Under the pieces are notes generated by a model that saw nothing but the letters and a program-made list of their open reading frames with translations, did not search any database and was not told the DNA's origin. This document shows, one piece after another, positions 7,447 to 46,700 of a stretch of 64,000 nt of DNA. The DNA is from Icerya purchasi. Taxonomy: Eukaryota > Arthropoda > Insecta > Hemiptera > Monophlebidae. A program made the position numbers and the translations under genes. Within the stretch, counting starts at the first letter, position 1. Each line of letters begins with the position of its first letter. The DNA lies in the NCBI GenBank assembly GCA_039619475.1, contig CM077116.1, forward strand, positions 275,915,258 to 275,979,257, in the 5' to 3' direction.

Positions 7447-7477
<31 letters not shown>

Positions 7478-7591
7478 TGGTAAGTCTATAGATAAGATAT
7501 GTGTAGCTATTATCGATACAATAGAATATTTTGAAATGTTAGAATATAATAAACGGGGCAAATAAGAAAAAGAAAAATGAATTAAATTCAA
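5696..7591 (-). CDS. RT plus restriction-like endonuclease ORF of the Dong-like element (partial)
   Basis: This is a 631-codon open frame. The first 50 or so residues read through flanking DNA and the microsatellite (a run of Ile), so the element's own protein begins near 7446. In order it shows the RT segment GDSLSPLWF, the RT active-site box YMDDIKLY, a thumb/linker region, a CX2CX8HX4C zinc motif (CRKCGKESETIKHILSGC), and a PD-type endonuclease core (RPDIILID, then LTDIAVP, then EDKVNKYE). This order, with a C-terminal endonuclease and no N-terminal apurinic-type one, is that of the R2/R4/Dong group. The remaining reading frame is unbroken, so the copy is young or decayed little. The N-terminal half of the protein is missing, so it cannot retrotranspose by itself. 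Confidence 0.8.
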
Positions 7592-10700: not shown

Positions 10701-13700
10701 TGGTCGGAAAAATCCACTGACGGTTAGTATAAGTTGGAGAGAGCAGAGGATTGTGAATATATTTGTTAAATTGAGAGAAAGGAGATCCGAAATTATTTTC
10801 TATGTTGGTTATGACTTTGGGAGCGCGTGTAATATTCCATTTTAATTAAGGGGGAATTGCAAATTGGATATCGAAAGGTTTGTTGGCAGGCGTGGAAGTA
10901 AGAAGGTTCAGCCAGGTAGGACTAGTCTATTCGACATAAAATTCGGATTTGCTACTGAGTCTACCCGAAAGAGTGGCGTGAGCAGCTCCGACAGCTGTTA
11001 GCGAAATGTTAAACAATATTGTTAGTGATAACAAGAATGCCTGGCCAACATTAGTCTAAATCGAATTAATACTGCAGACTTTGATAAAACTTTATTATTA
11101 CTGTTGAGTTTAGATTGAACTATTCTATAAATGAATATGTTCCTTTAGTTTCCTATGCTCGCCATACTGTGTTTAGAGGAAGTTGCGTAATTAGTTTTGG
11201 ACAAAAATCACGGCTCAGCAAACGTTGTAAATATTTTATAACTTTATTATTATTTCAGTAAAATTTCGAAAATTTTAAATTTATACTTTCTAAACTACAT
11301 ACTGGAAAAAAAGAAACTGTACAACTGCAGTCACTATCACATCATGCGGTCGTTTTTTAGCATCTACGCAAGATTTTCATACTTACCTGTGGCGAAGCGC
11401 TAATTAAATACTGCCAGCGACAAACTGTAAGCAGTATCTATGCGGCTGTTTGTTTTGCTTATAGGTCATGGTGTTTTTAGGAACTGATTTCGGATATTTA
11501 ATTTTTATCAGAGAACAAGTAGTAAACGAACCTGTCAGGGAGAACTGCATGGAAAATTAGCCAAATAATAATAAAATATAATACCGACATGTTACGGAGT
11601 TATAAAGTCCCATTCAGGGGAAAATTAAAAGTTAAAATAACGTATACGTTATATCGGAATTTTAAAAGTCGATTTTCTCCTTCAAATATAAACACATATA
11701 ATAGCGATATACATATATAAACCTTATATAAATTATTAAAAACGTTTTTATTTCATATTCTTAAAATTCGAAATTATAAATTATGTGTTTTGTTATGAGC
11801 GTTTTTTACCTATTAATTTTGTATAACGGATTGCTATCTGATTCATGTATATTTAGAGAAAGTTGTCCGTATTTTCTAATGTAATTCAGCAAAATCTAGT
11901 ACTCTATGATTAGTGATTACTTTTAATTCTTGTAAGCCCCGTTTTAAATCTAGTGTTATTTTATGTTTATTAATTATCACATGTTCCGCTATTCTTGATC
12001 TATCAGCGTGCTCCTCATCGTATAGACATCCTCTTTATACCTCAGATTGAAAGTATTTCGGGTCTATCCTATGTATACTTTATTGCAGCAAAAAGGAAAT
12101 TTACTCGATAAAATATAATATATCTTATACAGAAAAATTCACTCTTAAATTCTAAAACAACATTAATATTTATATCACAGTCTCGGTATATCAAATATTG
12201 CGACAGTAATTAAAATCCGCATTAAATATTCCTAGTGTTTCCGATAACCGAGTGATTGTGCTGCTATACACATTTAATATGGTTTTTTAATTGCCGCAAT
12301 TTGAAATTGGTGTAACGGTATTCTAATTAAAGTATGAGCGTTATTTCATAGCAATCATAAATAAACGGTGTATTTTATTGTATAAGATATGTTACATTTT
12401 ATCGAGTAAAATTACTATTCACTTTATGCCATATTTCAATTCACCTTTTTTAGACGAAATTTAAATAACAGTTTTTCTTAACAGTTTTATTTCACAATTT
12501 TTAATGTAAATATTTTCGAGTGATAGTACGGATATGATGCTACTTTTGGAATTGTACAGGGTATTGATTTCGGAATGTAATATGTAAACTTCGTTAGTTT
12601 TGCAGAAATCGCGCTTTGAGGAAATTCATTATTATTATTCGAATCTAAATTTTTCACATGGTCCGTTTGTATTAATAATACTTTATATCTTTCATCGCTG
12701 CTTTTATTTTAAAATTTTATTTCCTATATTCTGACGAAAACTATGTAACTAATTTTCGTCTGGTTATATTAAGCAAAAAAGGAATATTTCTAATAAACAA
12801 CGGTTATCACCGCAGTCAGCCTACACATTATCAAAAGTTATCGGTAGTAATGTTAAGACACGTAATATTTCCGTCAATAATGATGAGTTTGTCAATGACT
12901 ATATAGTAAGTAAAATAAGTCCGATACCTCCTTAGCAGGGCATCGGTGATTGTGTAATTAAACTTTTCATAATGAACTAAGCCTAATGATGGAGCTGGTG
13001 AGGATATCGGGTTCAGTTCCTTTCTACTTGGGATCCGCCTTTACTTTACCAGATTTCCCTGATACCCAATTATTTCATACTAGGTAAACCTGGGAGCGAT
13101 TCGGATGCGATTGGGCTATCTTTATTTGATAATATTTTAATTTTTTATCCGGCTGTATTAAAAATTAGTTTTTTTTTTTTTAATTTATGTTTCTACGATT
13201 AATGTTAATAATATTTTAATCGTCAATGGCATTATTACTAAGTGTACTTCTCCGATATCGATAATTGTGCCAGCGTTGACTAGGACAACTTTCGAATGAA
13301 CGAGGAATAATTAAAATCGGTCCACGTGAACACAAATTACATGTACGTTCAAACAAACAAAAAAGAAAATAAAAGGAACCCTGTTTGATTAAAATTTTGA
13401 TTTACTCTTGGTAGAAAATTTATCATTTCACAACTGAAACTGCGATTGTCGTATTTTTCAGCTAATATTTCATCGAATATAGTACAGACAGGACGTACAC
13501 GTAAACAATACTACACCAGTTTATTTTATAATACTTATCAGTAATCGTCGTTTACCATTTCTTGAAGAGAGACCGGAATAAGAAGTTAACGCTTATATCA
13601 CTGAGGATTTTCTCAAAGGAGCCTAAGAATTCGCAGAAAAACTCGATTCGTTTTTTAGAATTTAACGGATCTGAATTATTCGAAATATTCGGTTTTTAAA

Positions 13701-16700: not shown

Positions 16701-19700
16701 TTAATTTTTAGAGCAGCATCTTACTCTGTTTGAACGTAGATGTTGATAATATTTTCAAAATATTCCAAATTCTGCTACAAGTATACCGTTCTAGTTTATC
16801 TAATTCAATCAATTCCTACGAACTACAAATATACCTTCGTATTCTTTACTGTTAATAATAACATCATTTTCAGCTACAATAAAACAATGCTGACAGTAAC
16901 CTTCCACGCAAATGACGAAGATTTATTAATTTTAACATCGACAGAAAAGTAACTATTAAAATATTTTAAAATACATAACCGATTTTATTTTCGACTACCT
17001 TCCTGAGGTGACAGCCCAGGAGTAGATGTAAAATGCGAGTTCTCAGACAAAGGATGCCGCCACCGTTGATTAAAGCCTTCGAGGGCCGTTTCCAGAGTGT
17101 CTCGGACCGCGGAACTGCATTCCATTTGATTGTCGATCCCTTAATTAATACACACACATGTAAATGTACGTGTATATACGTCTGCACACACATGTAAAAA
17201 TCACCATCATCATCACTATCGCGGTAAATTCGTACGCGTGCCATCGCAAGTGACCTTGTACCTGTCAATCATTTGACCGATGCATGCCTTTACTTGTATG
17301 TAAATTACCGTTATTCGGTAGCGACTGGTTTTGGAGGATTACGCACACACATACAATGATGTATATACGGTTACGAGCGTTCGTAACATATGTAAAATTA
17401 GTTATTATCATTATTGGATTTTGTTGTTATCAATATTATCAGTGGTCAGTCTGCAGGAATCGCGGTAAAATACAGGTTTTCGCCGTTCCGGTATTTCTAG
17501 GAATCGCGAAGATTTTCGTTCGGTCAGTTGCGTAAAACTTTTCTTTGTCCGATACATTATGTACGGGGGGGTAAGTCTATCTCACACATCGCAAAAGCGA
17601 AAATGCTTCTCTCATAGCGCTACACGTAAATGCTAACACAACCGTTGAAACCAGATCTTAACGTTCTTATAATTTCTATTCCAGTCTATGCCTTATTACG
17701 GAACCACACCCTACATGTACACACTAACACAAACATACACTCATACTCAAAGCCCATGACTACTTTATTCAATGCGCATATGTAACCAACTATTCCTGAC
17801 AGAATGACATTTTTCTGATGTAATATTTCCACTGCCACAACCGATTTAAACCAAGTAAAAGCGCATGCATCGTTCTCGCACACATGTCGATCGTTAGCGA
17901 TATCGTAATTTTTTTTTTAAATTAACCAAAGTATAATATTTAAAGCATAAAACTAACCTGAGCTCCTCATTCCCCGCTTTATACCATTCAAATGTGTTTT
18001 TTAATTTTTTTATTTTTTCCATGCCTAAGCATTATAAAAATTGGTCTAAGTATATTTCTCATTTTCTACGGTTCCAAAAATTTTTTCTTTATTCTCCGAT
18101 CGTTACAAAAGCGTACTGACTAGTGATGGGAAACTTCGAAATGTTTCATTCGAATTATTCGATTGTTCGATAACTTCGAATGCATCCGATTGTTCCACAG
18201 TTGCATTCGAAATGTTATTTCATTCGTATAATTCATTCGTATTCACATCAATCATTCGAATTAAAATCATACGAATCAAAATCATTCGAATTAAAATCAT
18301 TCGAATCAAAAATCATTCGAATCAAAATCATTCGAATTAAAATCATTCGAATCAAAATCATTTGAATTAAAATCATTCAAATTAAAATCATTCGAATCAA
18401 ATCATTCGAATGAAAATCATTTGATTGTTTTTTGTTTTTTTTTGACGATTGTTGATTATTTCGATTGTAAAAACATTTCGACGCACATCACTAGCACTGG
18501 CAGATCACATGCTTATATCCACCATAGCGTTAGCCACCACGAAAGCGAACCATCGATCCCGTGCACACTCTACTCTCAATAGTTTCCCTATCGTTCATAA
18601 TAATTTTTCCAAGCCTAAGTATTATAGAATTAGTCTAAGTATATTTATTATTTTTTCTCACTTACGATTACTTTTCCATCCGTAAGTATTTATGTATGTT
18701 TTCCCTGGTTCTAAAAATAAATCTATCGATGTCTCGCCTCTCAATGAATGCGCACGCATCATTCTCGCGCATGTGTCATTCGTTCGTGTTACCACTTTTT
18801 TTTTCAAAATTAGTCCAAGTATATTTTATTATTTTTCTCATTACGATTATTTTCAGTCCGTAAGTATTTCTGTATGTTTTCCGAGGTTTTAAAAATTAAT
18901 CCGAACAGACATCCAGACCGTTGTGAAAGCATACTATCTATCCACCGCACAGATTCTACATTATACGTTACTCTATTACGAGTTCTACAAAAAATTGATT
19001 CGAATATGTTTTTCATTTTTTTTTTTTTTTCAATCCTAAAAATTCATTCTTTCTACCCCCGCCCCCTCACATCTAAAATTGCTGATCTTTCGTAATCTTT
19101 ATTTATTTTACCGATTCTAAAAATTAATCAATGGTTCACTCGAAAGCATACCGTACATTCCCACACACATATCTTTTATCACGAATTCCCCTATTGATCA
19201 TGAACTTTTTTCAGCGTTAGCCACAATAGCATATCACATTGGTCTCGCATACACACCACATGCAGTTCTATATGTCTAATTTTTATTAACGATCTTTATT
19301 TTTTTTGTACTGGTATTACTTTTTCCTACACAGTCATGTCATCATATACACTTAACATTGTCAAAAATAATTTTAACCTTTCGAGAAAGAAAAATCTCCG
19401 ATCAATAAAAAATATTTATTAACATCACAATTATTTTTAATATTATTCGTTTCACTATAAACATATTTTTTTATTTAATAAACTCATCCGCATCATCAAT
19501 CGTTTCAAGACATTATTGTTTCGAACGTCAATACCTGTTTTCCAAGAATCGATAACCTCTGCAGGCATATATCTCGTCGTCGCAACAACCTTTACCTGCA
19601 TAACTCACATACCTTCAAGACCACTTGTACATTGCTCGCACGCTATTTACCATTATTCGGTACAAGAATATTTTTCACACTCCCTCACATATGCGCATAC

Positions 19701-22700
19701 ACTCAAAGTCCTCGATTACTTTGTTTGTATACAAATATATTCAGCTTTCTCCGACGGAACAACATTTTTCTGACGTAACATTTCCACTGCCACAACCGAT
19801 TCAAAGGTAGCTAATGAGATAGCCTATCGAACGGAATCATTCAAGCGGTCAGTATTAGTTTTATGTTAAACATGTGTATTTTGTCGAATCGGTGTTCACG
19901 CATTATTAAAAAATTTACGTCAACGTTAAAGAAAATAATTTCCTATGTTTTTTCTCTTTTTTTCTCTATCATTTATTTTTGTCTTTTATCTTTCCTTTTT
20001 CTCTTTCTTTTTCTCTGTATTTTTTTTAGTGAAAAGTTTGAAATACATATTATTCAATCATGAACGCTAATATAGTTAACATAAGCAGCAACTCAAAATC
20101 AATTAAGGACGCCGAATTTATTCAGAATTTATTTGCGAGTGATAGCGACTCGCATACGTCTTCGTCACTTCAATTACCGCAATCAGATGGTGGTTATTCT
20201 TCAACAGAATCAACATCTTCTACACATAAAATCGTTGGTCCAGTATTATTGTCAGATCAGATGGATATAGCGGAATATTTTGTAGATTTCAGCTTCCATA
20301 AGGATTCTGATTATGGTTTTCTAGTAACCGAACTAGCGATGATTGATATGTCTGGCGGGAGGTGTTTACATACGCTATACAAGCCAAGCAGAGCATGGTC
20401 TGCATCAAAAATGCCTCATTTACAATGCTCTTCCGTGAGTCATTACTTGAAAACCCCCTCATTATTTCCCTGTCGGGAAGAAATATTCATGGCACGTGAT
20501 GTATTCACAATACTGTCTGAAAAACCGAAGGTTCGCGTATATATTTTAACCACTTATGCAAAACTTATATTATGGGAACTTAACAAAAAGTCTGAATTGT
20601 TGCGTGACTTGGACTACGAACTCGTTAATATGGAGAAAGTCTTTCGAGTACCTAGTATCGATGATTTATATCAAGAATACTCTGGTATAAGCAATCTGGT
20701 AACTTGTAAGCACCATTATGAGAATGATATTTTTCATTGTGCGATGAAAAATGTTATGGTGATGAATACGTGGCACGATCACGTTATCCGCCCGCTGAAG
20801 CTTATGAACAATCTCAATATAAATGATTTAAGCCAGTTATTCATTACAGCCACCAAAGAAATGATAATTACATTATTTCCAAGTTGCATCGGGGACATTT
20901 ATATATTTTTACCGGACAGATTAAAACAGGATGATACGATAAAATCATTTCTACCATGCTACGATCACGAACATGATAAAGAATATTATATCGATGGTGA
21001 TACATTACACAGGAGTACTCGAAATTGTGTCAAAGTAAAAGATTGCGACGACTGTCAACATTCAATTCATACGGATTAAAAATTCAATAAAAGACGTGGA
21101 ATTTGAAAGCTGGAGTTGTCTAGATCCTACGAAAGTTGAATATGAACATAACAATTACCTTTCAATGTACCAAAGTCAATTGTCGCGTAGTATGTATAAT
21201 ATGTGAAATAAAACCATATTTTTTTCTTTTACTCGCATTTTTTATTTTTATTATTTCAAAATCTTTTACATTGTTTCACATAAATTATAATGTATGTATG
21301 TATATATGTATGGAATTTTAATATGTAATAATATACATTTCATACATTTTATTTTATTTCATGGTCATATAATTACTTTAAAATTATTTAGATACACCGC
21401 AGATATTATAGTACCGAACACATCATTTATTATTTCATTCTATTTCAATTAATATGTTGTATGGATGAAATCGAATCAATTTATGTAACTGTTTATTTAA
21501 ATTTAAATAATCTTTTTCTTTTTTTTTTTTATCTCTCAGCATATGCATGCGTGTATATGCTTACATATACAAGTATGAAAAAAATTATTTTTTTATTTTT
21601 TCCTCGATATGAATGGTAAATCTACGACTTTATTTGAAAAACGGTCAAAACCTAATACATAGATTTCAAACTTTGATGGAAATTTCCGTAAATCGTTCAA
21701 TTTACACTTATTATCTTTAAAAAAAAAAAATTTTCATTATTATTATTCATATCATTTAAATAGACTGATACGACAGAGAGAGAAAATAAAAAGCTAAATT
21801 TTTACACGTGAGGGAGGGAGCTGATGAAAACGTACGAGTCTTATTATTTGGAATACAGATTATGAAGGAAATTTTTATTCAATGTTTCGTTCTAAGATTT
21901 TTCATTTTTTACATTTAAAATTTTTCAATACGAAAATATTTCGAAATCTACAGGAACGTCTATGAATAGTCTTCGTCATTATAGAAGCACCTGCAGATCA
22001 TGTATCGACAATGCATGCGCGTAAGGGTGAGTAAATATGTGTGAACATGTGTGTGTATGTATGCTTGAAATGTGCGAAATGGCTAATAAGAAACAACCGT
22101 TGAATCGCAACGACAGGTAGAGATCCGCTTATAGAATAAGAGAGTGAGAGTGAGATAAATTATGTACCTTTATTATTGCAGAACAATTCAATATAAGTAG
22201 ATAGAGCAGATTTTCTCTAAACGTAACATTGGCCTGACAAATTTCTGGACTGAAAGTAAATCTAACCCAATACTCCTGCTACAGTTGTTATGCCAACAAA
22301 GGAGAATAAAATATCGAGATTTCAACAACATAAACAGCAAGAATTTGTATCATTTGTTATATTTGATGATTTCGAGTGTATCCTACAGCCTCTTAACAAT
22401 GAATCACTAGTGCATGATTAATTGTTAAGAGGCTGTAGGATACACTCGAAATCATCAAATATAACAAATGATACAAATTCTTGCTGTTTATGTTGTTGAA
22501 ATCTCGATATTTTATTCTCCTTTGTTGGCATAACAACTGTAGCAGGAGTATTGGGTTAGATTTACTTTCAGTCCAGAAATTTGTCAGGCCAATGTTACGT
22601 TTAGAGAAAATCTGCTCTATCTACTTATATTGAATTTTAATAACTTATATATAACATGAAGTATATTTTAAGTATTTAAAATAATATGAAATTCACAGTG

Positions 22701-25700
22701 ACTGATATATATGGTGAAATGTATGTATAAAGGAAGATTTACTCACAAGTTTTGATGAAATTCTAGTTATTTAAAATGTTGTTATCAAAGAGTAAATCAT
22801 TGGTTAATACTGATAACAACAATAATGGAATGAATAAGGAAGCAAGACTGAAAAAATGAACTAGACAGGATATGTAGCGATATAATGTAAAAATATAACC
22901 TATTGAAGTCCAAGTGGAAACCAATTACAAGTACTTCAGCCGCCATATTGGAACCTATTATGAAACCATTATTGGAAATTCATGGAGCATTACAAAAATC
23001 TGAAAGATTAAAATGGATTCTTATGGAATAAATGATACATCAATGGTAAAAACGTCAAAAACGGTCTAATAGTAAACAGAGAAGTGACGCTGAGTCTGAA
23101 ATTAAAGATGAAAATATTAAAAAACAAACTCAAAGCTAAGTCGTTTAACATAAGTGAAGTAGATTCATTTCATACAGATTTTGATGAACTTGTTCCGAAT
23201 GATCAAGTATATGGAATACACTATGATACAAACATTGATGAGTATCTGATAGGATCGACATTGATTTCTTGGGACTGCAAATATGGTGAAATTTATTTAG
23301 GAAAAGGAAGTAAGCAAATAAAATTTCCTTACATACCCAGACTCTTTCATTTACTAATGGTATCGCATATAGATGAGAATAAATATACAAAATAATGATT
23401 TAGATCTATATAAATAAATACTTGAGTGTACTAGAGCTCATTTACGTGCTACTGGTGTATTAAAGGGTACTACATTTCCTAAATACAGAAAAATAATACG
23501 TCCGATGTTTCAGTCTAATGGATCAAGTGTAAAAATTTACTATGATGGAGCAAAGACTAAGCATTGTGCTGATGGCGGAGTATGTCATGAAGATACACCG
23601 ATCGATTATTCAGACGATCCTAATGAATTGGTTGAGTGATTATTGTTATCGCATACATCTAAAAAAGTGTGAAATGCTGGTGTAGATGATGAAATTCGAA
23701 TGATTGAGGAAAGTTGGTTGAAGAAGGATATATTCAGTTAAGTTAGTAGTTTTTTATGTTATCTTATTAGTGATGGAAGACGATATATTAAAATTTAAAA
23801 ATGAATTAATGTTCTCGTTTACCATCGATAATGATTATATTAAAGTCTATCCCTGCATGTACATAGCTGCATGTTAAGATCGTCTGATACAGCTGTTAAA
23901 ACCGGATCTTGACCCTTACTTATATGTAAGATCTCATGTGTACATGCATACACTACCACAAACAAAATGTATATGTATGTACAAGTTCTTAACAACTTCA
24001 TTCATCAATGTATGCAATCAACTTTCTCCGTTTGAAGGGCATTTTTCTGATGCAACATTTCATCGAATGCATCTAATTCAAAGGTAGACATTATGTCAAC
24101 TCTCTGAATAACTGTATTCGCTCGCTTGTTATTAGTTTCACGAATTAGTGTTCTTCACACGTTTAAATTTTAGTTACTATTAAAAGTTTTAGTTTTTTTT
24201 TCTTTTCTCTTTAATAACAACTGTAACAATGATAGTAGCACGTGAGGTAATTATCGATATTCAATGTTTTAAATATGATAATGATACGTACATCATTAAG
24301 GAACTTTCAATAATAAGTATCGATGGTGAAATTCAATTTTATAGAATTTACAAGCCTCCGTTCGAATGGGATGTATTATCCAATAATAAAAAACAAGAAA
24401 ACATGAGGATAATTCAAAACTGTCATTCAATTCCATGGAATGCAGGAGATTACAATTACGAATCTATTGCTGGTGATATAGAAAATGTGTTGGAAGATTT
24501 GGAACCATTGAATATTTACGTTAAAGGAAATGAAAAAATTACCACTATATGGATAAAACTATTTGAAACATCACTTTCAAGATTCAAGATTATTAATTTA
24601 GAAAAAGAATTCGGTATACCCAATTTAAGGAAATTAAATAATATGTATAAAGGAATATCAAGAGTTGTAAAATGTGATGCACACACGGATAAAAACATAC
24701 ATAGGTGTTCATTGCAGAATGTATATGTGATGATGAAATGATACGATGTAAATGTTAGACCTATATTATCATTAGTAAAATATTCTACGTGCGACTTGAT
24801 GCAAAATATTACTGCAGAGATATTAATTAATGTATGCCCTCAAAAAATTTGCGATTTTTACAATAAATTACCTGTAGCACTGAAGAATGATCGACGTATC
24901 AAACGCTTCTTACCGTGTTTTAAACATCATAGCTATGATATTCCAGATTCTTTTCCACTCAGTGTAGTACATCCCACCTTAATCAGAGATTGTCCGCAAT
25001 GCAACCATGCAAGTTTGTTCGAATTCCAACATAACCCGATCAAAGGAGTCAATTTGTGAGCATTGTACGAATCATAATCTTGTAATTTTTCCATCTTTAA
25101 ATTTTTTGTGATATTTATTTATTTTTTAAATTAATTTTCTTTTATTCTTGTTAATCGTTTGTAAATATATTACATGAATTATATATATATTTTACATTTC
25201 ATAATTTTTTTCGCGTGCGAATGGAATAATAAAAATAACTTTTTCTTTTTCCTTTAAATGTAAATATTATCTATATTCAACTTCAATAATGAGTATAAAC
25301 ACTTTTTTTATTGTAAAATCATATGGGTTCTAATTAGTGATGGGCAACTTCGAAATGATTCATTCGAATTATTTGATTGTTCGATGACTTTGAATGCATT
25401 CGATTGTTCCGTGGTTGCATTCGAAATGTTATTTCATTCGAATAATTCATTCGTATTCACAACAATCATTCGAAATGCTATTTCTCTCGGAAGAATCTAG
25501 TCAATGTTTAACGAATACTTCATTCGTTTGTGTTCGGATAGTTTCGGTTTTTATTCGAATAATTCATTCCTATTTGCAACAATCATTCGAAATGTTATTT
25601 CTCTCGAAAGAATCTAGGCGATGTTTAACGAATACTTCATTCGTTTGTGTTCGGATGGTTCCCGGTTTTTATTCGAATAATTCATTCGTATTCACAAAAA

Positions 25701-28700
25701 TCATTCAATTGTTTTTTTGTTTTTTTTTTTGACGATTATCGGTTGTTTCGATTGTAAAAACATTTCGAAATCGCCCATCACTAATTCTAATACATATACA
25801 TAAGAAAATAATAAAAAAACGAGTAACAAATAAAAAAATAATAAACAGAGTGATAGCAATATGGTGTATTTAGAATTTGCATCATCTAATACCTCAAGCA
25901 TTGTATGTAGAATATAAAAATGAGTAAAAATAGCTATAATTAGAGAGAGTATGAATAAATTTTTAAAAAATATCAAAAAAAAAAAACCATGTTATTTTCC
26001 TGGCGGTGTTTGAAATGAAAATTTCTACATGTATTTAATGTGATAGTTGACGCAGGTGCGAAAATATGTTTAATTTTTTCAAAATTTAATTCTAAAAACA
26101 TTCGTGGAAAAGTAAATAAATTAAGTAAACATAGAAATTAGTAGGCATCATGTAAAAAATTAAAACTTATGATGGAACTTAGAATATAGATGAATGAAAA
26201 AAAAGTTGTAATTGAATAGATTAATGAAAAAACATAATAGCCTTTGTGTTTACGTTTCTTCTGGTTTTTTTTTTGGTTTTTTTTCGTTATGTTTAATGCA
26301 TCATATTGCTTTTTATGTATAGCCTCTTCACTCTCTTGTTTTCAAAAGTATACTCTTCTGTCAATTACTTCTTTAAAAAAACTTTCCGAATTTTAGCATT
26401 TATCATATTATATGACATGTACAATAAATTAACAGATTCCATATTGGAGTGTAAAGAAAACTATTTTAAAAAATCTCTGAAATAAAAAATAATATAAAGA
26501 AAAAAGATTGTGAAGCAAAGAAAGAAAAAAAACAAAAAACAGTGATTCTTCATGATATTTTTACTCCCCACCATGGGGACATTTATTTTTGTAGAATTTA
26601 AATATTGTTGTAAAAGCAAGTATGATGTTATTTTGTATATCACAGGGTGAAAAAAAAAAATAATAATAATACGTTAATCGTTGATTTAAAAATTATATTA
26701 TCATACATTTCCGGCATCCGATGTTTGCATGTGCTTGTATAGAAAGCGTGTATACACATATACACGAGTAAAATATAATACATCCAAGGTAACTTGCATA
26801 TTTCTGCTGTTGTCTAAAACCGTTAGAATATTAGGTAAAAGATTGAGTAAGATAAATACGATCGTAACACATTGTTTAAAGAAACAAAAATAAAAAATAA
26901 AATAACATGATCGATTTAATTTGAATTTAGCAATATTTTTAGAACTAACATGAATTTTTTGTAAAACACGAAAGAAAAAAAAAGGAAAGAAAACAACAGT
27001 AAAATTTGTTAGTTTTACAGATAAATCAGTATAGTTGTATTTAACAATGCCTATGCAGTTAATAATCTTTTGTCATTCATTTAACCGTGCGCTCACACAC
27101 ATGCCCACATACATGTATACTGGTCTTAATGGTATGTTTATTATCAACTATCTCATTCATCCAGTTTTAAAGCTAATTTTCGGCCTTTTTTATAAAACTG
27201 CCTCGAAAAGGATGCTAACAGATATTTCACGTCTGCCACTGCAGTGCAGTTCTGCAATAATAAAGGTACATAATTTATCTCACTCTCACTCTCTTATTCT
27301 ATAAGCGGATCTCTACCTGTCGTTGCGATTCAACGGTTGTTTCTTATTAGCCATTTCGCACATTTCAAGCATACATACACACACATGTTCACACATATTT
27401 ACTCACCCTTACGCGCATGCATTGTCGATACATGATCTGCAGGTGCTTCTATAATGACGAAGACTATTCATAGACGTTCCTGTAGATTTCGAAATATTTT
27501 CGTATTGAAAAATTTTAAATGTAAAAAATGAAAAATCTTAGAACGAAACATTGAATAAAAATTTCCTTCATAATCTGTATTCCAAATAATAAGACTCGTA
27601 CGTTTTCATCAGCTCCCTCCCTCACGTGTAAAAATTTAGCTTTTTATTTTCTCTCTCTGTCGTATCAGTCTATTTAAATGATATGAATAATAATAATGAA
27701 AATTTTTTTTTTTTAAAGATAATAAGTGTAAATTGAACGATTTACGGAAATTTCCATCAAAGTTTGAAATCTATGTATTAGGTTTTGACCGTTTTTCAAA
27801 TAAAGTCGTAGATTTACCATTCATATCGAGGAAAAAATAAAAAAATAATTTTTTTCATACTTGTATATGTAAGCATATACACGCATGCATATGCTGAGAG
27901 ATAAAAAAAAAAAAGAAAAAGATTATTTAAATTTAAATAAACAGTTACATAAATTGATTCGATTTCATCCATACAACATATTAATTGAAATAGAATGAAA
28001 TAATAAATGATGTGTTCGGTACTATAATATCTGCGGTGTATCTAAATAATTTTAAAGTAATTATATGACCATGAAATAAAATAAAATGTATGAAATGTAT
28101 ATTATTACATATTAAAATTCCATACATATATACATACATACATTATAATTTATGTGAAACAATGTAAAAGATTTTGAAATAATAAAAATAAAAAATGCGA
28201 GTAAAAGAAAAAAATATGGTTTTATTTCACATATTATACATACTACGCGACAATTGACTTTGGTACATTGAAAGGTAATTGTTATGTTCATATTCAACTT
28301 TCGTAGGATCTAGACAACTCCAGCTTTCAAATTCCACGTCTTTTATTGAATTTTTAATCCGTATGAATTGAATGTTGACAGTCGTCGCAATCTTTTACTT
28401 TGACACAATTTCGAGTACTCCTGTGTAATGTATCACCATCGATATAATATTCTTTATCATGTTCGTGATCGTAGCATGGTAGAAATGATTTTATCGTATC
28501 ATCCTGTTTTAATCTGTCCGGTAAAAATATATAAATGTCCCCGATGCAACTTGGAAATAATGTAATTATCATTTCTTTGGTGGCTGTAATGAATAACTGG
28601 CTTAAATCATTTATATTGAGATTGTTCATAAGCTTCAGCGGGCGGATAACGTGATCGTGCCACGTATTCATCACCATAACATTTTTCATCGCACAATGAA

Positions 28701-31700
28701 AAATATCATTCTCATAATGGTGCTTACAAGTTACCAGATTGCTTATACCAGAGTATTCTTGATATAAATCATCGATACTAGGTACTCGAAAGACTTTCTC
28801 CATATTAACGAGTTCGTAGTCCAAGTCACGCAACAATTCAGACTTTTTGTTAAGTTCCCATAATATAAGTTTTGCATAAGTGGTTAAAATATATACGCGA
28901 ACCTTCGGTTTTTCAGACAGTATTGTGAATACATCACGTGCCATGAATATTTCTTCCCGACAGGGAAATAATGAGGGGGTTTTCAAGTAATGACTCACGG
29001 AAGAGCATTGTAAATGAGGCATTTTTGATGCAGACCATGCTCTGCTTGGCTTGTATAGCGTATGTAAACACCTCCCGCCAGACATATCAATCATCGCTAG
29101 TTCGGTTACTAGAAAACCATAATCAGAATCCTTATGGAAGCTGAAATCTACAAAATATTCCGCTATATCCATCTGATCTGACAATAATACTGGACCAACG
29201 ATTTTATGTGTAGAAGATGTTGATTCTGTTGAAGAATAACCACCATCTGATTGCGGTAATTGAAGTGACGAAGACGTATGCGAGTCGCTATCACTCGCAA
29301 ATAAATTCTGAATAAATTCGGCGTCCTTAATTGATTTTGAGTTGCTGCTTATGTTAACTATATTAGCGTTCATGATTGAATAATATGTATTTCAAACTTT
29401 TCACTAAAAAAAATACAGAGAAAAAGAAAGAGAAAAAGGAAAGATAAAAGACAAAAATAAATGATAGAGAAAAAAAGAGAAAAAACATAGGAAATTATTT
29501 TCTTTAACGTTGACGTAAATTTTTTAATAATGCGTGAACACCGATTCGACAAAATACACATGTTTAACATAAAACTAATACTGACCGCTTGAATGATTCC
29601 GTTCGATAGGCTATCTCATTAGCTACCTTTGAATCGGTTGTGGCAGTGGAAATGTTACGTCAGAAAAATGTTGTTCCGTCGGAGAAAGCTGAATATATTT
29701 GTATACAAACAAAGTAATCGAGGACTTTGAGTGTATGCGCATATGTGAGGGAGTGTGAAAAATATTCTTGTACCGAATAATGGTAAATAGCGTGCGAGCA
29801 ATGTACAAGTGGTCTTGAAGGTATGTGAGTTATGCAGGTAAAGGTTGTTGCGACGACGAGATATATGCCTGCAGAGGTTATCGATTCTTGGAAAACAGGT
29901 ATTGACGTTCGAAACAATAATGTCTTGAAACGATTGATGATGCGGATGAGTTTATTAAATAAAAAAATATGTTTATAGTGAAACGAATAATATTAAAAAT
30001 AATTGTGATGTTAATAAATATTTTTTATTGATCGGAGATTTTTCTTTCTCGAAAGGTTAAAATTATTTTTGACAATGTTAAGTGTATATGATGACATGAC
30101 TGTGTAGGAAAAAGTAATACCAGTACAAAAAAAATAAAGATCGTTAATAAAAATTAGACATATAGAACTGCATGTGGTGTGTATGCGAGACCAATGTGAT
30201 ATGCTATTGTGGCTAACGCTGAAAAAAGTTCATGATCAATAGGGGAATTCGTGATAAAAGATATGTGTGTGGGAATGTACGGTATGCTTTCGAGTGAACC
30301 ATTGATTAATTTTTAGAATCGGTAAAATAAATAAAGATTACGAAAGATCAGCAATTTTAGATGTGAGGGGGCGGGGGTAGAAAGAATGAATTTTTAGGAT
30401 TGAAAAAAAAAAAAAATGAAAAACATATTCGAATCAATTTTTTGTAGAACTCGTAATAGAGTAACGTATAATGTAGAATCTGTGCGGTGGATAGATAGTA
30501 TGCTTTCACAACGGTCTGGATGTCTGTTCGGATTAATTTTTAAAACCTCGGAAAACATACAGAAATACTTACGGACTGAAAATAATCGTAATGAGAAAAA
30601 TAATAAAATATACTTGGACTAATTTTGAAAAAAAAAGTGGTAACACGAACGAATGACACATGCGCGAGAATGATGCGTGCGCATTCATTGAGAGGCGAGA
30701 CATCGATAGATTTATTTTTAGAACCAGGGAAAACATACATAAATACTTACGGATGGAAAAGTAATCGTAAGTGAGAAAAAATAATAAATATACTTAGACT
30801 AATTCTATAATACTTAGGCTTGGAAAAATTATTATGAACGATAGGGAAACTATTGAGAGTAGAGTGTGCACGGGATCGAATGGTTCGCTTTCGCGGTGGC
30901 TAACGCTATGGTGGATATAAGCATGTGATCTGCCAGTGCTAGTGATGTGCGTCGAAATGTTTTTACAATCGAAATAATCAACAATCGTCAAAAAAAAACA
31001 AAAAACAATCAAATGATTTTCATTCGAATGATTTGATTCGAATGATTTTAATTTGAATGATTTTAATTCAAATGATTTTGATTCGAATGATTTTAATTCG
31101 AATGATTTTGATTCGAATGATTTTTGATTCGAATGATTTTAATTCGAATGATTTTGATTCGAATGATTTTAATTCGAATGATTGATGTGAATACGAATGA
31201 ATTATACGAATGAAATAACATTTCGAATGCAACTGTGGAACAATCGAATGCATTCGAAGTTATCGAACAATCGAATAATTCGAATGAAACATTTCGAAGT
31301 TTCCCATCACTAGTCAGTACGCTTTTGTAACGATCGGAGAATAAAGAAAAAATTTTTGGAACCGTAGAAAATGAGAAATATACTTAGACCAATTTTTATA
31401 ATGCTTAGGCATGGAAAAAATAAAAAAATTAAAAAACACATTTGAATGGTATAAAGCGGGGAATGAGGAGCTCAGGTTAGTTTTATGCTTTAAATATTAT
31501 ACTTTGGTTAATTTAAAAAAAAAGTTACGATATCGCTAACGATCGACATGTGTGCGAGAACGATGCATGCGCTTTTACTTGGTTTAAATCGGTTGTGGCA
31601 GTGGAAATATTACGTCAGAAAAATGTCATTCTGTCAGGAATAGTTGGTTACATATGCGCATTGAATAAAGTAGTCATGGGCTTTGAGTATGAGTGTATGT

Positions 31701-34700
31701 TTGTGTTAGTGTGTACATGTAGGGTGTGGTTCCGTAATAAGGCATAGACTGGAATAGAAATTATAAGAACGTTAAGATCTGGTTTCAACGGTTGTGTTAG
31801 CATTTACGTGTAGCGCTATGAGAGAAGCATTTTCGCTTTTGCGATGTGTGAGATAGACTTACCCCCCCGTACATAATGTATCGGACAAAGAAAAGTTTTA
31901 CGCAACTGACCGAACGAAAATCTTCGCGATTCCTAGAAATACCGGAACGGCGAAAACCTGTATTTTACCGCGATTCCTGCAGACTGACCACTGATAATAT
32001 TGATAACAACAAAATCCAATAATGATAATAACTAATTTTACATATGTTACGAACGCTCGTAACCGTATATACATCATTGTATGTGTGTGCGTAATCCTCC
32101 AAAACCAGTCGCTACCGAATAACGGTAATTTACATACAAGTAAAGGCATGCATCGGTCAAATGATTGACAGGTACAAGGTCACTTGCGATGGCACGCGTA
32201 CGAATTTACCGCGATAGTGATGATGATGGTGATTTTTACATGTGTGTGCAGACGTATATACACGTACATTTACATGTGTGTGTATTAATTAAGGGATCGA
32301 CAATCAAATGGAATGCAGTTCCGCGGTCCGAGACACTCTGGAAACGGCCCTCGAAGGCTTTAATCAACGGTGGCGGCATCCTTTGTCTGAGAACTCGCAT
32401 TTTACATCTACTCCCAGGTACGAATTTATAGTTTTGTTACAGGGTCTTGTAAAAATTCTACCGTGTTTATCGAAGGACGGAGAAGTTTGAATAGTTCTTC
32501 GAGCGTTTGATGTTCTGTAGTTCTTCCGTTAAACTGGTAAAGCTTTAAATATAAAATTTTCTACATTAATCTTTTGTAATACGAACATATTAAAGAGATT
32601 CTCTGTTTAATAGTCTTTTAATTATGTTAAGAATACGGAATATCTGGAAATTAACCGAAGAAATAGTAGTATAATTGTGTAGGCTTAACATGGGAAAATT
32701 ATAATAAAAATACGGAAACCAATTATTATTAGCTTTACTAGCCTACAACTAACATTTAGTTACTAGAAAATAAAAAAAAAAAAAGTTGTGACATGCTTAG
32801 AAATACTTTGCAATTAGTTTCTAGAAGCAACTTTTAAATTTGCAATTATTAACATCGCTAAATTCTGATTTAAAAATAAATAAAATTTTTGCTATTGAAA
32901 TTTTAAAAATTTTTTTTTTGTACCATAAATATTTTTAAGTAACGTTTTCAAATTAGCCAGTAATTTACTTACCACCTTTTTCTTTAAAAAACTGCAAAAT
33001 TAAAAAAAAAAAAACATACGTTATAATTAACTAAAATGTACAAAAATTAATAAATGAATGCCGTTTATATCCTATATATACATGGGCGTCGTCAGCGGGG
33101 GCAGGGGGCAGCTGCCGGAGCCTTGAAATTTTTTAATCAACTGGCCATGATGAGTATTCATAGGCGCGTAATCACGGACAATTTGGAAGACTTTTATAAC
33201 AAAGTAACAGTAGAACAATTTGCCAGAAACCCACGAAAATTATGTTTTAATTAAGATTTTATTCTTGTTTAATAAAATATTAAGCCTGTACAACTTATAA
33301 ATTTTATTTTTCCTACAACTCGTATCCTCTTTCGTATCATCTTGCCTTCCCGTGGTTCATCGGCTGGCGACGCCCTTGCTTATATACTTAATTTTTGTCG
33401 ATCAAAAAAAAAAAGAAAAAAAGTTGTATGTTCGTTGCGTGTTTCTTTTTGTTTTTTTATGTTTGCTCGTGCTAAGGGACCAATTTTAATGATCTCTGTT
33501 CATTGGAAAGGGGTACCGCGATTGGTGGTGTTACTATATGACGATGCCTAGTTATTATAATAAATATTAAAAAGAAAGGGTCTTCTTAGTGAAGTTTTTA
33601 GTAATACAACAAACGTCATTGCCATTTGAAATATTATCAATATTAACCACGGAAACGTAAATGGTTAAAAAACTAATTTTTTTAATATAGCCGGACAAAA
33701 AATTAAAATATTATCAAAATTTAACCGTGGGTAATAGATTTAAATGAAGATAATGAAACGGAATTAATACTTGACATTACTGCGTATAACTTTTGACAGC
33801 GTAAACTGACCATAGTGATATTCTTTGTTTAAAAACAAATCGTACCGGTCAGTTGTCATACGAGTCGGTAAGTATCAATGAGTTCTAAGTAATAATTAAA
33901 ATAAATGTTAAAACGAGCAGTTTCCTTACCTTTTTTTTCCTTTTTTTTTTTTTTTTGCTTAATAAACACAACATAAAAATTAATCAGAAGATTTTCACTA
34001 AAATATAGCACAGAAACGAATATAAAAAATTTTAAAATTAAGGAAACGAACCTCGAATTACTTGAGATATCATTAATCTTATTTACCATGTGGAAATGTA
34101 GATTCGAATAAAAATAAAGAATTAAAATACTAAAAAACACTCAACCTATTTAAATCAATACGTAGCAGTTCATCGAGGAATGATTTTCTCGTTATGGAAT
34201 TACTTTTTAATTTATTAATTCGCTTCACATTAAACTACGGCGCGATTATTTATGGCTCTGCCTCCGGAAGTAACTTGCAATCAAATTAAATTTACGGATT
34301 ACCGGAAACGTCTCTTTTGCCCCGGTCGCATTCCTTTAAATTAAAACTAACATGTGTCCATTGTCTACTAGGACAAATATTTTGGTTGAAAGGTACTTTT
34401 ATAATTTTTTAATTACCGTTTTCACACATTTAAACCTGGTTTGAGTACAATCGACCGGATTGCTCATTATATTTATCGTGTATATTTATCTTTTATCGGA
34501 AAAGAATATTTATTAACGACGTTCTTGAATGTCAGAGGAACGTTCGATAATATTAATTTGCCGTTTCTTTTCGATTAATTAATTGAGGTAGGTGTTCCAG
34601 CACACGATTATGCGAATACATCTATAATTTGTTTATAAAAAGAATTTGAAACTTTTTAATCCGATTACTTATTTAGCCGCGACAAGAATTTCGTATAAAG

Positions 34701-40700: not shown

Positions 40701-43700
40701 GCTATATGTATAGTAAAGTAAGTCCCATACCCTTGATAAGGTATCATGGATTGTGAAGTTGAGCTTTCCATAATGGTACTAAGCCTAATGGATCTGATGA
40801 AAATACTGGAGCCAGTTCCTTTCCACTTGGGATCCGCCTTTACCTTCCCAGATTTCTCTGGTACCCAATTATTTCAGGCCGGGTAAACCTGGGAGCGACT
40901 TCGATTCGGAACGAGACAAGTCTCGAACCCGTGTAGCGACTTTTTTCCACTTCTTCAACCGTCAAGTTAGTAAGTATCATGGTATTATATCGTCCTCTGA
41001 AGAGCCGTCATCTCAAAAGTCTACATATAGTATTGACCAGTTTATTGCATCTAAGTATTTTGTTCTTGATCTGCCTTGTGCTAGTTTTATATCGGTTCAT
41101 CCTTCTGTTATTACCATGCTCCAATCTGAATATCGCATGAAGTGGATCCAAAATTTTATTTCTCCTGTGCTCTATTATTTGCAGTATTCTGCGCTCATCT
41201 TTTAATTCTCTTGGCAGTCTTCAATCGCTGTTCTTTTCAGACCGTGCCACGCAATCCAACCTAGACCACGTCTCTATTCTGCACTCTTCCAGTTTTCTTT
41301 GTTCTTTGCACAACGTCCATGTTTCACCTACTCAAGGGGTTCCGTACAAATATTTTTATAAAATTTTTTCGTGTGACAATGCATAAATCATCTTTAATTA
41401 CTTATTACTTAAGTGTTATCTAAGGGTATGGTATTTTATTTTTTAATCACCTGTAGCACCTTTTCTAATAAAATATTGCCATTACTGCGCAGTGCAATAT
41501 ATCATGATGTGTACGTTTCTTGATGCTGTCACGCATAACTATTTCAGAAAATACAGGCGCATTAGTCGCCTTTTATCGAGTTCTATCATGCTACTCTATT
41601 AACATGCATACAAATAAACAAAGTATAAACTTATTGATAATTTTCTTTCTTATTCATTGATATAACACACAATTGGACATGAACAAACATAGGCATTATA
41701 TAGTTTTTATGAATGTAGATTACGTTCATGTATAACATGGAAATCACGTACCTAGCCGGATGTAATTTGAGTAAAGATTATGCCTTTTAACTGAAATGTA
41801 ATATTTTGACCCCAAAAATGCTTGTTTGGAATTAAAATAACATTCCTAAATTTATTTCTTCTTATTATACACTAATCCTACATATAGAACCATACATTGA
41901 TGGATAAGTGCAGCTGAAAGTGGCCAAATGGTAAGCTACTTTTCCGCCAGGCCATAAAAAAAAAAAAAAAAAAAAAGGCAGCCGCTGTTTCCAATACGAC
42001 TTAAAGGTGGGGGGTAAAGTTTTTAAACTTTTTTTTTGTCTTTTTTTTATTAGCTTACAGGGATGTACAACATTTCAAGATTATTGAGTCAAAATTTGAA
42101 GTCGATCGCAACAAAACTAACGGACCTATAGAGTTTTGAGTGAGCGGTGCTCCGCTCCGGTTTTGAACACCTACTGGGCAGCTACGTAGCGCTGCTACCA
42201 GGAAGCTGTTTCGTGCTCTTTTGAATTTCGTATGTTCTAGTTTCGCTGTGATTGTGTATTTATTATTAGTAAAATGCCGAAGAAAATTAGCAGAGAAGAT
42301 CGCAAGAGTACCAGTTCCAGATTAGATCGATCAAAAAAAGTAATACCTCCACAGAAACGCAAGACAGACGATATCGAAGCAAAAGGTACATCGTCCAAAA
42401 AAAAAAAAAAAACTAAATACTTTTGTGCCATTTGGACTACTTACTACCATTACTGTTCGATGGACGAGAAACCGCAGCACGGCAAATGCCCTGAAGTAAT
42501 TCAAACACAGTTACACTGCACTTGCAAGTGACGTTTCTGAAGAAAATTAACCGATATATGAAGACTTGAGTAAGGGGGCACTTCTGCAGCGATATCTTGG
42601 AGGATTCACTCAAAACAACAGTGAGAGTTTGAATCAACTCATTTGGAAAATTACCTCAAAATCACTGAGTGGTACCTCAACTGTTGTTGAAATCACAGGT
42701 CACGTGGCTCCATGTATGTTCAATGAGGGCTGTTTTGCTTTGGTCTCATTTATGCAAGAGATAAACATCAGTACAGGGTCAAGTTCTCATGAATGGACGC
42801 GCGCAGTAGATTGAACGAGCATAAACAGAGTGGAGCAACAAGCTGCACTTGAAAGTAAAGAAGGCAGAATTCTACGTCGACAGGAGCAAAAAGCTGCCTT
42901 AGATCTTACAGCTGAAAGTTGTGAGCTTTATGGGCTTAGCATCGATGACTCTGAATAAGTATATCAGAAGAAACACTCGCGTACTGATGTTTAAGTCAAA
43001 TTGTTTTGTACACAAAACTTTAAAGCCTTTTTCTCGCACTTGACATTTTTAAAGTCCGTGGACACTGTAACTCGAAAACTAATGCACCGATTCTTTTGAA
43101 ATTTTGTACAGTGTTTCTGCACATCAATTACGAGATAACGCTGGGAAGGTTCTTTTTTTTTTTATTATTATTTATTTTACAATAAAAAATTTGTCGATTT
43201 TGTTAGGCGAAAATCGCGTTTTTGACTTCCAAGTGTTAACAAAAATTAAAAAATTAAAAAAAAAAAAAAAAATCCTCCCTGCGTTACCTCAAGAAAATGA
43301 TTAACTAGCAATAGCATTTTGATATTTTTGATTTCAGATGACCAGTGGTGAGATATAGTGTCCACCGCAAAACAACTTTTTTTTGAGGCTTCTTCGAAGA
43401 TTTGCTGCTAACGGCTTATTTTTTAATATTTCTTATTTAAAATTTCAGATAATATTGTTCAAATGTTACTCTCTTCATTGTATTACGCTTAATAAAATAT
43501 ATTTGCACTCACTGGAGCATAAAGAAAAATTATTGAAAATGATCCATTTTTTACCGAAATTAACTTTATCCTCCCCTTAATCGAGCAGATGGTCGCGGTT
43601 TATGTAGCACCGAATATAAGTTTTTGTAAGCTGGCCTACCATAAAAAAATATACATTGACACATATACATACTAAGCGATGTGTTAAAGCGAATGCCTTG

Positions 43701-46700
43701 ATATAAAGCTGATTGCTGATATTAATGTAACTGTGCAAATTGGACTGGATGTAATAATGTTTTAAAGTAAGCTAACGGGTAAAATCAGAGTGAAGGGAAT
43801 TAAATTTACCGGTCATGATGTTGAATTTCTAAAAGAATAATTAAAATAATAATTTATAGAAAAGTGGAGCAATCGGCAAGAGGACTGGTTGGTTTAGTTA
43901 CGCATGGAAAATCCTAAAGGCACGATTAATAAATAATGATAGTGATAATAAAATAATAGGGAATAACAGCACTATATGAATGGTATCATACACAAAATCA
44001 CATCATGTGATAGAGAATTAAGAAAGAATAAAGAAAGAAAAAAACTGTAATTGATAAGATGGACGCGCTGGTAGTAAACACAATATTTTTTTTTTTTTTT
44101 AATAATAAATTTCTTTGGACGCGCTAAAACGCAATAGTCATTACGTTTCTATTTTTATTGTCTTTAATGCATAATAATGTCTCATACAAATCTCGCTACT
44201 TTCAAAAATTATACTCATTTATTACCTACTACAAGACCTCTGAAGAGGTACTTTACATTTTATTGTTTTTATCACATTATGCTTTATTTTTTCTTTTTTT
44301 TTTCCTACCCTGGGCGCGCCAGAGGCCTTGACCCAACAACATGAAAAATTAAGAGTTATAACTAAATAGCCAAGCGGTCAGAAATGGAAAAGACAAAGGA
44401 CAGCAGCAATGGAATAACTGAAGGCAATGGGAAGGAAAGAATATAGGTAGCGTTAAAGGGAGTAGGAAGACCCAAAACTAGAAGTTGGGCGTAAAGAAAG
44501 GAGCGTTCGTTAGAGAGTGTAGAACATTCGAATAGGATGTGATTTGAGTCACAAATACAAGAAGGCTCAGAAGCGTGAAGAGAGCAGAAAGGAGAAGGGG
44601 ACAAAGCGAATCGAAAGCGAGAAGAGGGGAGTAGAGAATGATTGATTCTAAGCCTAATTAAGGAAACAACAGTGGAACGACGACAGGTAGGAATAGATTG
44701 CAACCAAGGCAGGAAACTAGGAACCGATTGAATAAGACGGTACTGTGAAAAGCGATTTGAGAATAAAGATGGATACATGTCAGACCAAAGTCTGGAATGA
44801 TTAGAGCGTGATAGAGAAAGAATGTCTGAGGAAGGGAAAGAGTCGAGGAAAGGACCAATGCGGGCGGCTGAGCGAGCTAAAGAGTCAGCTGCGTCATTTC
44901 CCTCAATATTGGAATGACTAGGGACCCATAGAAAGTCTATGAGAATGGATCGGAACGAGAACAAAGAGGAGACAAGAGATCGAATAGAGAGGATGATACC
45001 GTCAGAAGTATGAGAAGGAGGAGAGGAAATGGTTTGAAGAACGCCTTTGGAATCAGAAACAATCAGGAATTTGTGAACCCCACTCGTAGAGGATATGAAT
45101 TGAATGGCACGAAGAATTGAGATCGACTGGGCTGAGAAGATGGAGCAGAAAGAAGGAAGTCTAAAAGACTCAGTGTGCAAGAACGTAGGAGATGTATATG
45201 CGCCACCCACGCCCCCATCACTCTTGGAGCCATCCGGGAAGATTAAGGCATGGGAAGGAAAAGAAGAGTTCAGCAGCTGAAGGAATTCGAAGTTGACTAC
45301 ATTGTTAGAGGAAGAATTTGCTCGGACTGGAAGAGAGGAGAAATTGATGGGGTGCCATATGCTATTAAAATCGAGAGAAAAGTAAGGAAGACTGTTATAA
45401 GGGGAAACGTAGGGAGAAAAATTGGAAACACGAGCAGCTATATGCGATAAAATCGGGGTTCTATGAGGCGCCAAGCGCCAGTGATTTTTGATATGAAGAT
45501 ACGAAGGAATAATATTGGATGACAAAATGGGGAGGCGTTTTATTAAAAATCGATAACCGAGGAGTGAACGACGAATGGAAATAGGTTGTGTGCAAGTTTC
45601 GGATAGAATCGCAGGAATAGGAGAAGATCTTAAAGCGCCAATGCATAGGCGAAGGCAGGAATTCTGAATTGCATCAAGTTTCGAAAGGAGAGACTTGGAG
45701 GCATTGCCATAAATGAAGGAACAATAGTCAAGTTTGGACCGAATAATCGATTTATATAGAATTAATAGAATGCACGGGTCTCCATCCCATCTGAGGGGAG
45801 ATAAAGATTTGAGGAGATTAAGTCTTTTGATCGAGGAATTATAGATATAATTAATATGTTCATGAAATGTAAGGCGACTATTTAAGAAAAGACCTAGATA
45901 ACATATGGAATTAACAGTGGGAATAGGTGTACCAGATACGCTGATGTTTATAATTAGCACGATTAAAGGGGCGGAGAGCAAAAATTATACAGGAAGACTT
46001 GGAAGGGGAAAGAGAAAGGTGGAGAGTAGATAGAGCATTGCTAAGATGAGACAATGAATGATTTAACTCGTTGGTGGCGGAGGACAGATCATCTGAGGTG
46101 GAATAAACTAAAATGTCATCAGCAAAAAGGAGAGAGAAAGAGGGAATAGGGAGCGAAGCAATATCGAAGGAGTAAATATTAAAAAGAGTGGGGCTAAGGC
46201 AGGAATCCTGGGGAAGCCCACGATAGACGCATCTGGATGTGGAAAGAGAAGAAGAAGATAGATAAAGAGTTCTATGTTGAAAGAGGTTGAGTATAAGAGT
46301 GATAAAAACCGGAGGGAGATTAAGAGAGAGGAGTTTGGAGCCCAGAGAAGGAAGATGCACATTATCGAATGCAGAGCAGACATCGACAAAATAAGCGACA
46401 GTAAATTCCTTTGATAGGAATGATTTATAGATATCTGCAAGGAAGGTACTGATGCAATCTACCGGGCCAAGCCCGGGGCGAAAACCGAACATATTAGAAG
46501 GAACTAGATTATTATGCTCAATCCACCAAACGAGACGATTATTTATTAAACCTTCAAAGAGTTTGCGCAGACATGAGGCTAGGGAGATAGGACGGAAGGA
46601 ACACTGGTTTTTTTTAGGAATTGGAATGACAATGAAATCATTCCAAGACTCAGGAGTAAAACCAGAGAGTAAGAAAGAGTTGAAGATATTCAGAAGGGAG

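Follow-up and report, generated by a model that had tools for sequence, protein, structure and literature searches.

A non-autonomous Polinton with giant inverted arms in Icerya purchasi and its probable descent from a snap-back copy

The element at 17021-32412

The window studied here is a stretch of 64,000 nucleotides of the Icerya purchasi genome (contig CM077116.1, positions 275,915,258 to 275,979,257). It contains a mobile element of 15,392 bp (17021-32412) with CCCAGG on either side; this direct repeat, checked in the sequence, is exactly 6 bp long. The tips of the element, AGTAGATG...CATCTACT, form AG...CT terminal inverted repeats. Two inverted arms (17021-22184 and 27249-32412), each of 5,164 bp and identical over their first 798 bp, enclose a spacer of 5,064 bp; their alignment shows 5 substitutions and 2 indels of one base each. 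An earlier note on this DNA had reported the coordinates, the duplication, the termini, the arms and the core, all of which are confirmed in the sequence, as is an intact gene in each arm (identical 339-codon open frames).

A palindrome of 452 bp (22185-22636), with 1 mismatch in 222, begins at the first base past the inner end of the left arm. Together with the related elements described below, it suggests that the feature is probably a Polinton that is non-autonomous and goes back to a giant snap-back copy formed by fold-back replication. The parts of the element are listed here under that interpretation.

17015-17020, no strand: target-site duplication CCCAGG, left (sequence)
17021-22184, + strand: left arm, putative outer section of the ancestral palindrome's left half; ends at the deletion junction 22184/22185, where the relative C1_282126 is continuous
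17021-17685, + strand: stretch common to both ends of four short-repeat relatives, where it is the 660-bp terminal inverted repeat (sequence match)
22185-22406, + strand: central palindrome, left half, with a type-B DNA polymerase (PolB) fragment on the + strand (PolB profile and match to the PolB of a relative)
22407-22414, no strand: loop CTAGTGCA, putative symmetry centre of the ancestral palindrome, common to the window copy and the palindromic relatives
22415-22636, - strand: central palindrome, right half, with the same PolB fragment on the - strand (PolB profile and match to the PolB of a relative)
22637-27248, no strand: putative inner section of the right half, present in one copy, with the 4,612-bp mirror missing on the left (mapping to palindromic relatives)
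27249-32412, - strand: right arm, putative outer section of the complete right half; runs without a break into 27248 in C1_282126, C1_200907, C1_308707, C1_171570 and C2_76868
32413-32418, no strand: target-site duplication CCCAGG, right (sequence)

Relatives in the same genome and the origin of the palindrome

The 280-bp tip was searched in the organism's own 1.1-Gb assembly, and 40 matches were scored out of 450 candidates. These 40 tips comprise 15 facing pairs, including the window element, and 10 unpaired tips. All 15 pairs begin with AGTAGA, partly by selection, and 14 have a perfect 6-bp duplication; that of C2_497080 contains one mismatch. Repeats of ~660 bp are present in 4 of the 15 pairs, with a tip identity to the window element of 95-96% over 665-668 bp, and arms of about 4.9 kb or more in 9, counting the window element. 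The repeats of two further pairs, C1_210544 and C2_497080, are long; these two, like C1_336017 and C2_82365, were examined in part only. C2_155623 and C2_209140 have the same palindromic duplication, CACGTG, by chance. When 18 flanks of 9 elements were compared, none of the left flanks matched the right flank of the same element. One stretch of 139 bp, 68% alike and common to the flanks of two different elements, is probably a dispersed repeat.

Two of the relatives with the same tips and short repeats, C1_513603 and C2_60930, carry genes for PolB, integrase, ATPase, a double-jelly-roll capsid protein and a phospholipase A2 (PLA2)-like protein; hence, the family belongs to the Polintons. The PolB of C2_60930 is a frame of 1,223 aa, for which Pfam gave only a sub-cut-off match to Endonuclease_7, and in C1_513603, it lies in frames on two overlapping pieces. 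Nine C1_513603 frames were scanned against Pfam, where an rve integrase, a Pox_A32 ATPase, a double-jelly-roll domain (E 2e-76) and a phospholipase A2-like domain were recognized. The integrase, ATPase, PLA2-like and capsid frames of the two elements are 99.7-100% identical, which makes recent activity likely. In addition, C2_209113 has a PolB in pieces, and C2_209140 an integrase-like frame.

In the window, PolB is reduced to the fragment at the small palindrome. A profile of 40 proteins (every second one above 1,100 aa among 120 listed, up to 40) was run on the 1,529 window frames of at least 25 aa, and only two matches fell below the inclusion threshold: 22266-22418 (+, E 3.8e-5) and 22421-22555 (-, E 6.3e-5). 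They cover profile positions 402-440 and 402-437, respectively, and are the two halves of the small palindrome. The score of 17.9 bits compares with 2.1 bits for the best of 1,000 shuffles, and these two places are also matched by the PolB of an autonomous relative (35% over 40 aa, E 5e-5). A full protein-primed PolB gene was not found in the element. Ten frames of the autonomous relatives were compared with the whole window by tblastn (E ≤ 0.01): the frames of 333 aa (E 3e-100) and 319 aa (2e-52) and PolB (5e-5) have matches there, and no match was found for the integrase, ATPase, double-jelly-roll capsid, PLA2-like, 305-aa and 270-aa frames. As no integrase was matched, the element is termed a non-autonomous derivative rather than an autonomous member of the Polintons.

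Four of the 15 paired elements (C1_282126, C1_200907, C1_308707 and C1_171570) are whole-element palindromes of 20.1-21.1 kb, each with its own 6-bp duplication. Their outer 6.7 kb are mirrored, and self-complementarity extends across the whole of the middle piece; the halves measure 10,057-10,566 bp. The substitutions between the halves, given for the outer plus the inner piece, number 0+5, 5+1, 7+2 and 2+2 in the same order, and the gap columns 4, 14, 12 and 2; the two pieces overlap by 100 bp in this comparison. The same centre DNA with its 8-nt loop is present in the window copy and in all four palindromes, and in C1_282126, the PolB of an autonomous relative matches both sides of it.

Since these results come from an assembly and palindromes are a known type of artefact, fold-back or chimeric reads have to be considered. 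However, the target duplications lie outside the repeats and differ among the elements of this lineage (lineage A), the flanks are not mirrored, the halves are a few substitutions apart and one centre is common to four loci. An assembly or library artefact was rejected on these grounds and appears very improbable.

In the four palindromes, the arm sequence continues on both sides past the position of the window's junction. With 9,998 bp in the right half of the window copy and 5,386 bp in the left, the left half is 4,612 bp short, the length of the single-copy stretch 22637-27248. Sequence matching 22637-26370 lies on either side of the centre in C1_282126, and C1_200907 lacks 23684-24159 on both sides. 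The window copy is, as read from these alignments, a whole-element palindrome minus 4,612 bp of its left half, and its core consists of the centre together with the inner stretch of the right half, which survives. Repeats of 5.16 kb around a core of 5.06 kb would represent the derived state, the ancestral form being a palindrome with halves of about 10 kb. The left side of the 15.4-kb element C2_76868 (duplication CTAATA) joins arm position 21412 straight to the centre sequence; it appears to be a second reduced copy, with a deletion ending at the centre. A core decayed beyond reading was also considered and rejected, as the core is the inner part of one half and holds recognizable Polinton genes.

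The earlier note had called the element a non-autonomous Polinton derivative, and this is borne out by the sequence kinship with the autonomous relatives and by the unmatched integrase, ATPase and capsid genes. Its type-B polymerase fragment is real, as profile and relative agree. The proposed loss of replication and capsid genes from the core holds for the integrase, the ATPase and the capsid, but a PolB piece remains. From the anatomy of long repeats around a core, the giant, gene-bearing inverted arms stand, and the core has to be redefined as palindrome centre and inner right half. The expected further copies were found by the tip search, ending in AGTAGA and possessing their own 6-bp duplications and long arms, and the autonomous relatives share the tip. 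Clean integration of a long-arm form is shown by the distinct duplications of the relatives, evidence that does not extend to the exact deleted form.

Long arms could also arise by break repair, when the broken end of an ordinary Polinton is repaired from the other end, past the short repeat, as proposed for Galileo; repeated or very long tracts would produce arms of 5-10 kb. This rival has the best precedent: in the parts of the literature used here, Galileo copies whose repeats have taken up internal sequence are non-autonomous, a break-repair mechanism being proposed for them (PMC3573991), and truncated EMALEs have regenerated repeats (PMC8547959). Yet, such an extension is expected to leave a single-copy core, whereas the four palindromes have just the 8-nt loop at the PolB stump. 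Without a unique core, a single fold-back event is the simpler explanation, and repair extension is considered unlikely.

Alternatively, two elements or replication products may have been joined head to head, through a dimer or recombination of inverted copies, and then trimmed at the PolB centre. Two identical ends around a truncated gene would result here as well, and the genome offers many copies (450 first-look candidates). On the other hand, two breaks at the same place on both halves would be needed, and the five centres (window copy and four palindromes) have one loop in common, as expected from one hairpin. Joining is, hence, regarded as improbable.

In the favored explanation, fold-back replication, the growing strand of an ancestral Polinton would have folded back in the middle of copying at a short hairpin (stem AATCA/TGATT around the loop). 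The folded strand would then have been copied back to the terminus of origin, resulting in an element that bears one and the same end on both sides and lacks complete genes for polymerase and integrase. Replication and integration would be supplied in trans by autonomous relatives, which can mobilize the element because both termini are normal. A tree of 16 arms from 8 elements places the left and right arms as sisters in all eight. Arms within an element differ by 0-7 substitutions in 4.9-5.7 kb, elements of lineage A by 0.2-1.9% and these from C2_155623 by 6-12%. The sister arms indicate that the halves of each element were made from, or homogenized against, each other near the time of insertion, and this probably happens in every cycle. 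As palindromes are unstable, copies such as the window element, with its one-sided deletion, and C2_76868 would arise.

A different centre, with about 413 unique bases and without the loop word, is found in the largely self-complementary C2_155623. C2_82365, of which the ends and a 2-kb centre piece were inspected, is self-complementary there and also lacks the loop word. These two may represent a second lineage with another centre, possibly from an independent fold-back; with two or more such lineages, the event may have occurred more than once.

Several observations weigh against this scenario. The replication step is inferred, and double-strand-break repair or recombination of two elements could also yield palindromes. 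PolB is oriented towards the arm-matching end in both autonomous relatives, but the fragment at the palindrome centre faces away from that end, so that the donor is not among these two. At the centre, three of the four palindromes gave PolB profile hits that reached the cut-off, and for C1_282126 this applies to a single side; the centre DNA itself is common to all four. The centre of the 34-kb C1_336017 was not located, the piece at its midpoint being without an inverted repeat. All seven arm differences of the window element are confined to 17819-19016 (largest-gap test, P about 0.011), a clustering that simple equal ageing of the arms does not explain. A model of in-situ repair built on this clustering was dropped, because the palindromic relatives made such a repair unnecessary. 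Finally, all tips were picked by similarity to that of the window element (the 40 scored of 450), so the counts are not family-wide frequencies.

The arm gene, other gene remnants and neighboring repeats

Four genes or gene remnants were recognized in the element.

20060-21079, + strand: arm gene, 339 aa, open (ATG-initiated frame, 339 codons)
22852-23690, + strand: decayed Polinton gene in three pieces, 42-65% identical to a 319-aa frame that neighbors the integrase in an autonomous relative (protein match)
24229-25056, + strand: second copy of the 333-aa gene, more similar to it (55% over 270 columns) than its paralogue, the arm gene; one in-frame stop at 24739-24741
28354-29373, - strand: mirror copy of the arm gene, identical (ATG-initiated frame, 339 codons)

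From stop to stop, the arm frame spans 345 codons, against a longest frame of 210 codons among 500 Markov-resampled arms. Its product is 24% identical over 268 columns to the 333-aa frame beside the capsid gene of an autonomous relative, and, going by this alignment, the arm gene is a Polinton gene copy that has diverged. Another frame of the relative, of 294 aa, matches weakly, over 31 columns at the end of each arm gene (E 5e-4; 2e-4 in a separate comparison), and was rejected as the counterpart, the 333-aa frame matching better. The paralogue is 24% and 33% identical to the arm gene in the pieces on either side of its stop. For the decayed gene, Pfam did not confirm the label DUF8207.

The arm gene is open in all 16 arms examined (332 or 339 codons). 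Between the two lineages, the ratio of non-synonymous to synonymous substitution rates (dN/dS) is 0.27-0.29 in seven comparisons; the window element and C2_155623 are separated by 45 synonymous and 56 non-synonymous changes. Within lineage A, the changes are too few to judge selection, and part of the constraint may predate the palindromes.

No family was assigned to six element frames with PHROGs, and 18 distinct frames (19 entries) had only sub-cut-off matches in Pfam. In the protein database, no relative of the arm gene was found at E ≤ 0.001 and none for alignment A1 at E ≤ 10; sequence searches of the PDB returned weak matches only (best E 0.022 and 0.32). The viral contigs, phages and prokaryote genomes searched contained no relative, and nothing was found in Rfam and tRNA scans. 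The structure models are poor, with a mean predicted local distance difference test score (pLDDT) of 46.9 and 51.2. Their best PDB matches are DEDDh-type exonucleases, so the arm gene product may, at low confidence, resemble RNase H-like/DEDDh exonuclease folds. In a viral structure library, proteins of Apophua simplicipes ichnovirus are among the best matches of both models (mean pLDDT about 50), and for the arm gene model, Ichnoviriform fumiferanae and Drosophila-associated adintovirus 2 appear at ranks 7 and 16. These matches may serve as a lead only. Possible very distant homologues of an ichnovirus gene are reported for Drosophila-associated adintoviruses in the part of the source used (PMC8363768), a report that fits these leads without proving them.

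A 74-bp motif occurs at 17777-17850, 19732-19805 and 24009-24082, upstream of the arm gene and of its paralogue; the copy at 17777 has no gene directly behind it. The short-repeat relatives contain a similar stretch ~0.73-0.93 kb from one tip. Short tandem repeats at 18240-18424 (arms, ~15 bp) and 25428-25717 (single-copy part, 117 bp) have a motif in common.

Outside the element, a mariner-type transposase frame of 401 aa (51810-53015, -; Transposase_1, HTH_48) lies in a possibly intact mariner (51760-53082) bounded by 40-bp inverted repeats, 93% complementary. This mariner is nested within larger inverted repeats (50271-53309; 227 bp, 82%), together with a frame at 51138-51707 whose DDE_3 match is just below the cut-off. 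Frames of non-LTR retrotransposons with RVT_1, endonuclease and RNase H domains are present at 44362-48169 and 5696-7591 (-). A dispersed repeat family of ~200 bp, 72-81% alike, has copies at 12899-13103, 40702-40933, 53382-53607 and 61536-61719.

Comparison with known systems and significance

The 6-bp duplication, the AG...CT tips and the terminal inverted repeats are those of Polinton/Maverick (adintovirus-like) elements, and the genes for PolB, rve integrase, ATPase and double-jelly-roll capsid occur in relatives that have these tips. The window element differs in having no integrase, ATPase or capsid match. Its tips are close to the Polinton (AGT)2 end motif, according to the portion of PMC8097293 used, where intact vertebrate Mavericks have repeats of 46-1,447 bp, compared with inverted arms of 5.2 kb in the window element and about 10 kb in its relatives. 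Long repeats have been thought possible, to judge from the excerpt of a cryptophyte survey in which repeats from 100 bp to 8 kb were kept (PMC12220804).

EMALE virophages are likewise flanked again by terminal repeats after truncation, but these measure 0.2-2.3 kb and the host is a flagellate (PMC8547959, in part). Non-autonomous Galileo copies have long ("recombinant") terminal repeats extended by internal sequence. Galileo, however, belongs to the P-superfamily, with 7-bp duplications rather than the 6 bp of the window element and repeats up to about 1.26 kb, and no whole-element palindrome occurs in the account used (PMC3573991). A P-superfamily transposase was absent from the 18 element frames scanned, although non-autonomous copies would lack one anyway. 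Poxviruses, whose replication system differs from that of Polintons, show a comparable expansion of the inverted terminal repeats (ITRs). In mpox, one end is duplicated onto the other and the genes there are lost, but the ITRs make up at most 24.6 kb of a far larger genome, so that a unique centre remains (PMC10230479, in part).

A literature search, with most subscription journals outside its reach, found, judging by titles, no reports of non-autonomous, truncated or palindromic Polintons. A further analogy is with snap-back (copy-back) defective viral genomes, in which a truncated genome is mirrored on itself and helped in trans; to our knowledge, these are known mainly from RNA viruses and not as germline insertions. 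Their trait of a whole genome forming an inverted duplication with a short loop is found in the four palindromes and, after allowing for the one-sided deletion, in the window copy. It is about equally plausible and doubtful, in our view, that the Polintons of Icerya purchasi spawn self-complementary snap-back satellites, palindromic over their entire 20 kb, which retain one terminus and a copy of a single Polinton gene. These would be replicated and integrated by helper proteins of autonomous copies, would have both halves regenerated from a single strand in each cycle and would last long enough for selection to keep that gene.

As far as we know, ideas on how Polintons replicate have been based chiefly on the genes that they contain. 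Naturally occurring palindromes of entire elements, with their duplications intact, would record the replication intermediate physically and would imply a free, end-replicated and foldable linear DNA that is integrated afterwards. They could, in addition, give rise to much double-stranded RNA and destabilize the genome. Moreover, they would preserve in the germline the remains of a DNA virus-like element that lived as a defective genome dependent on helpers while one of its genes stayed open.

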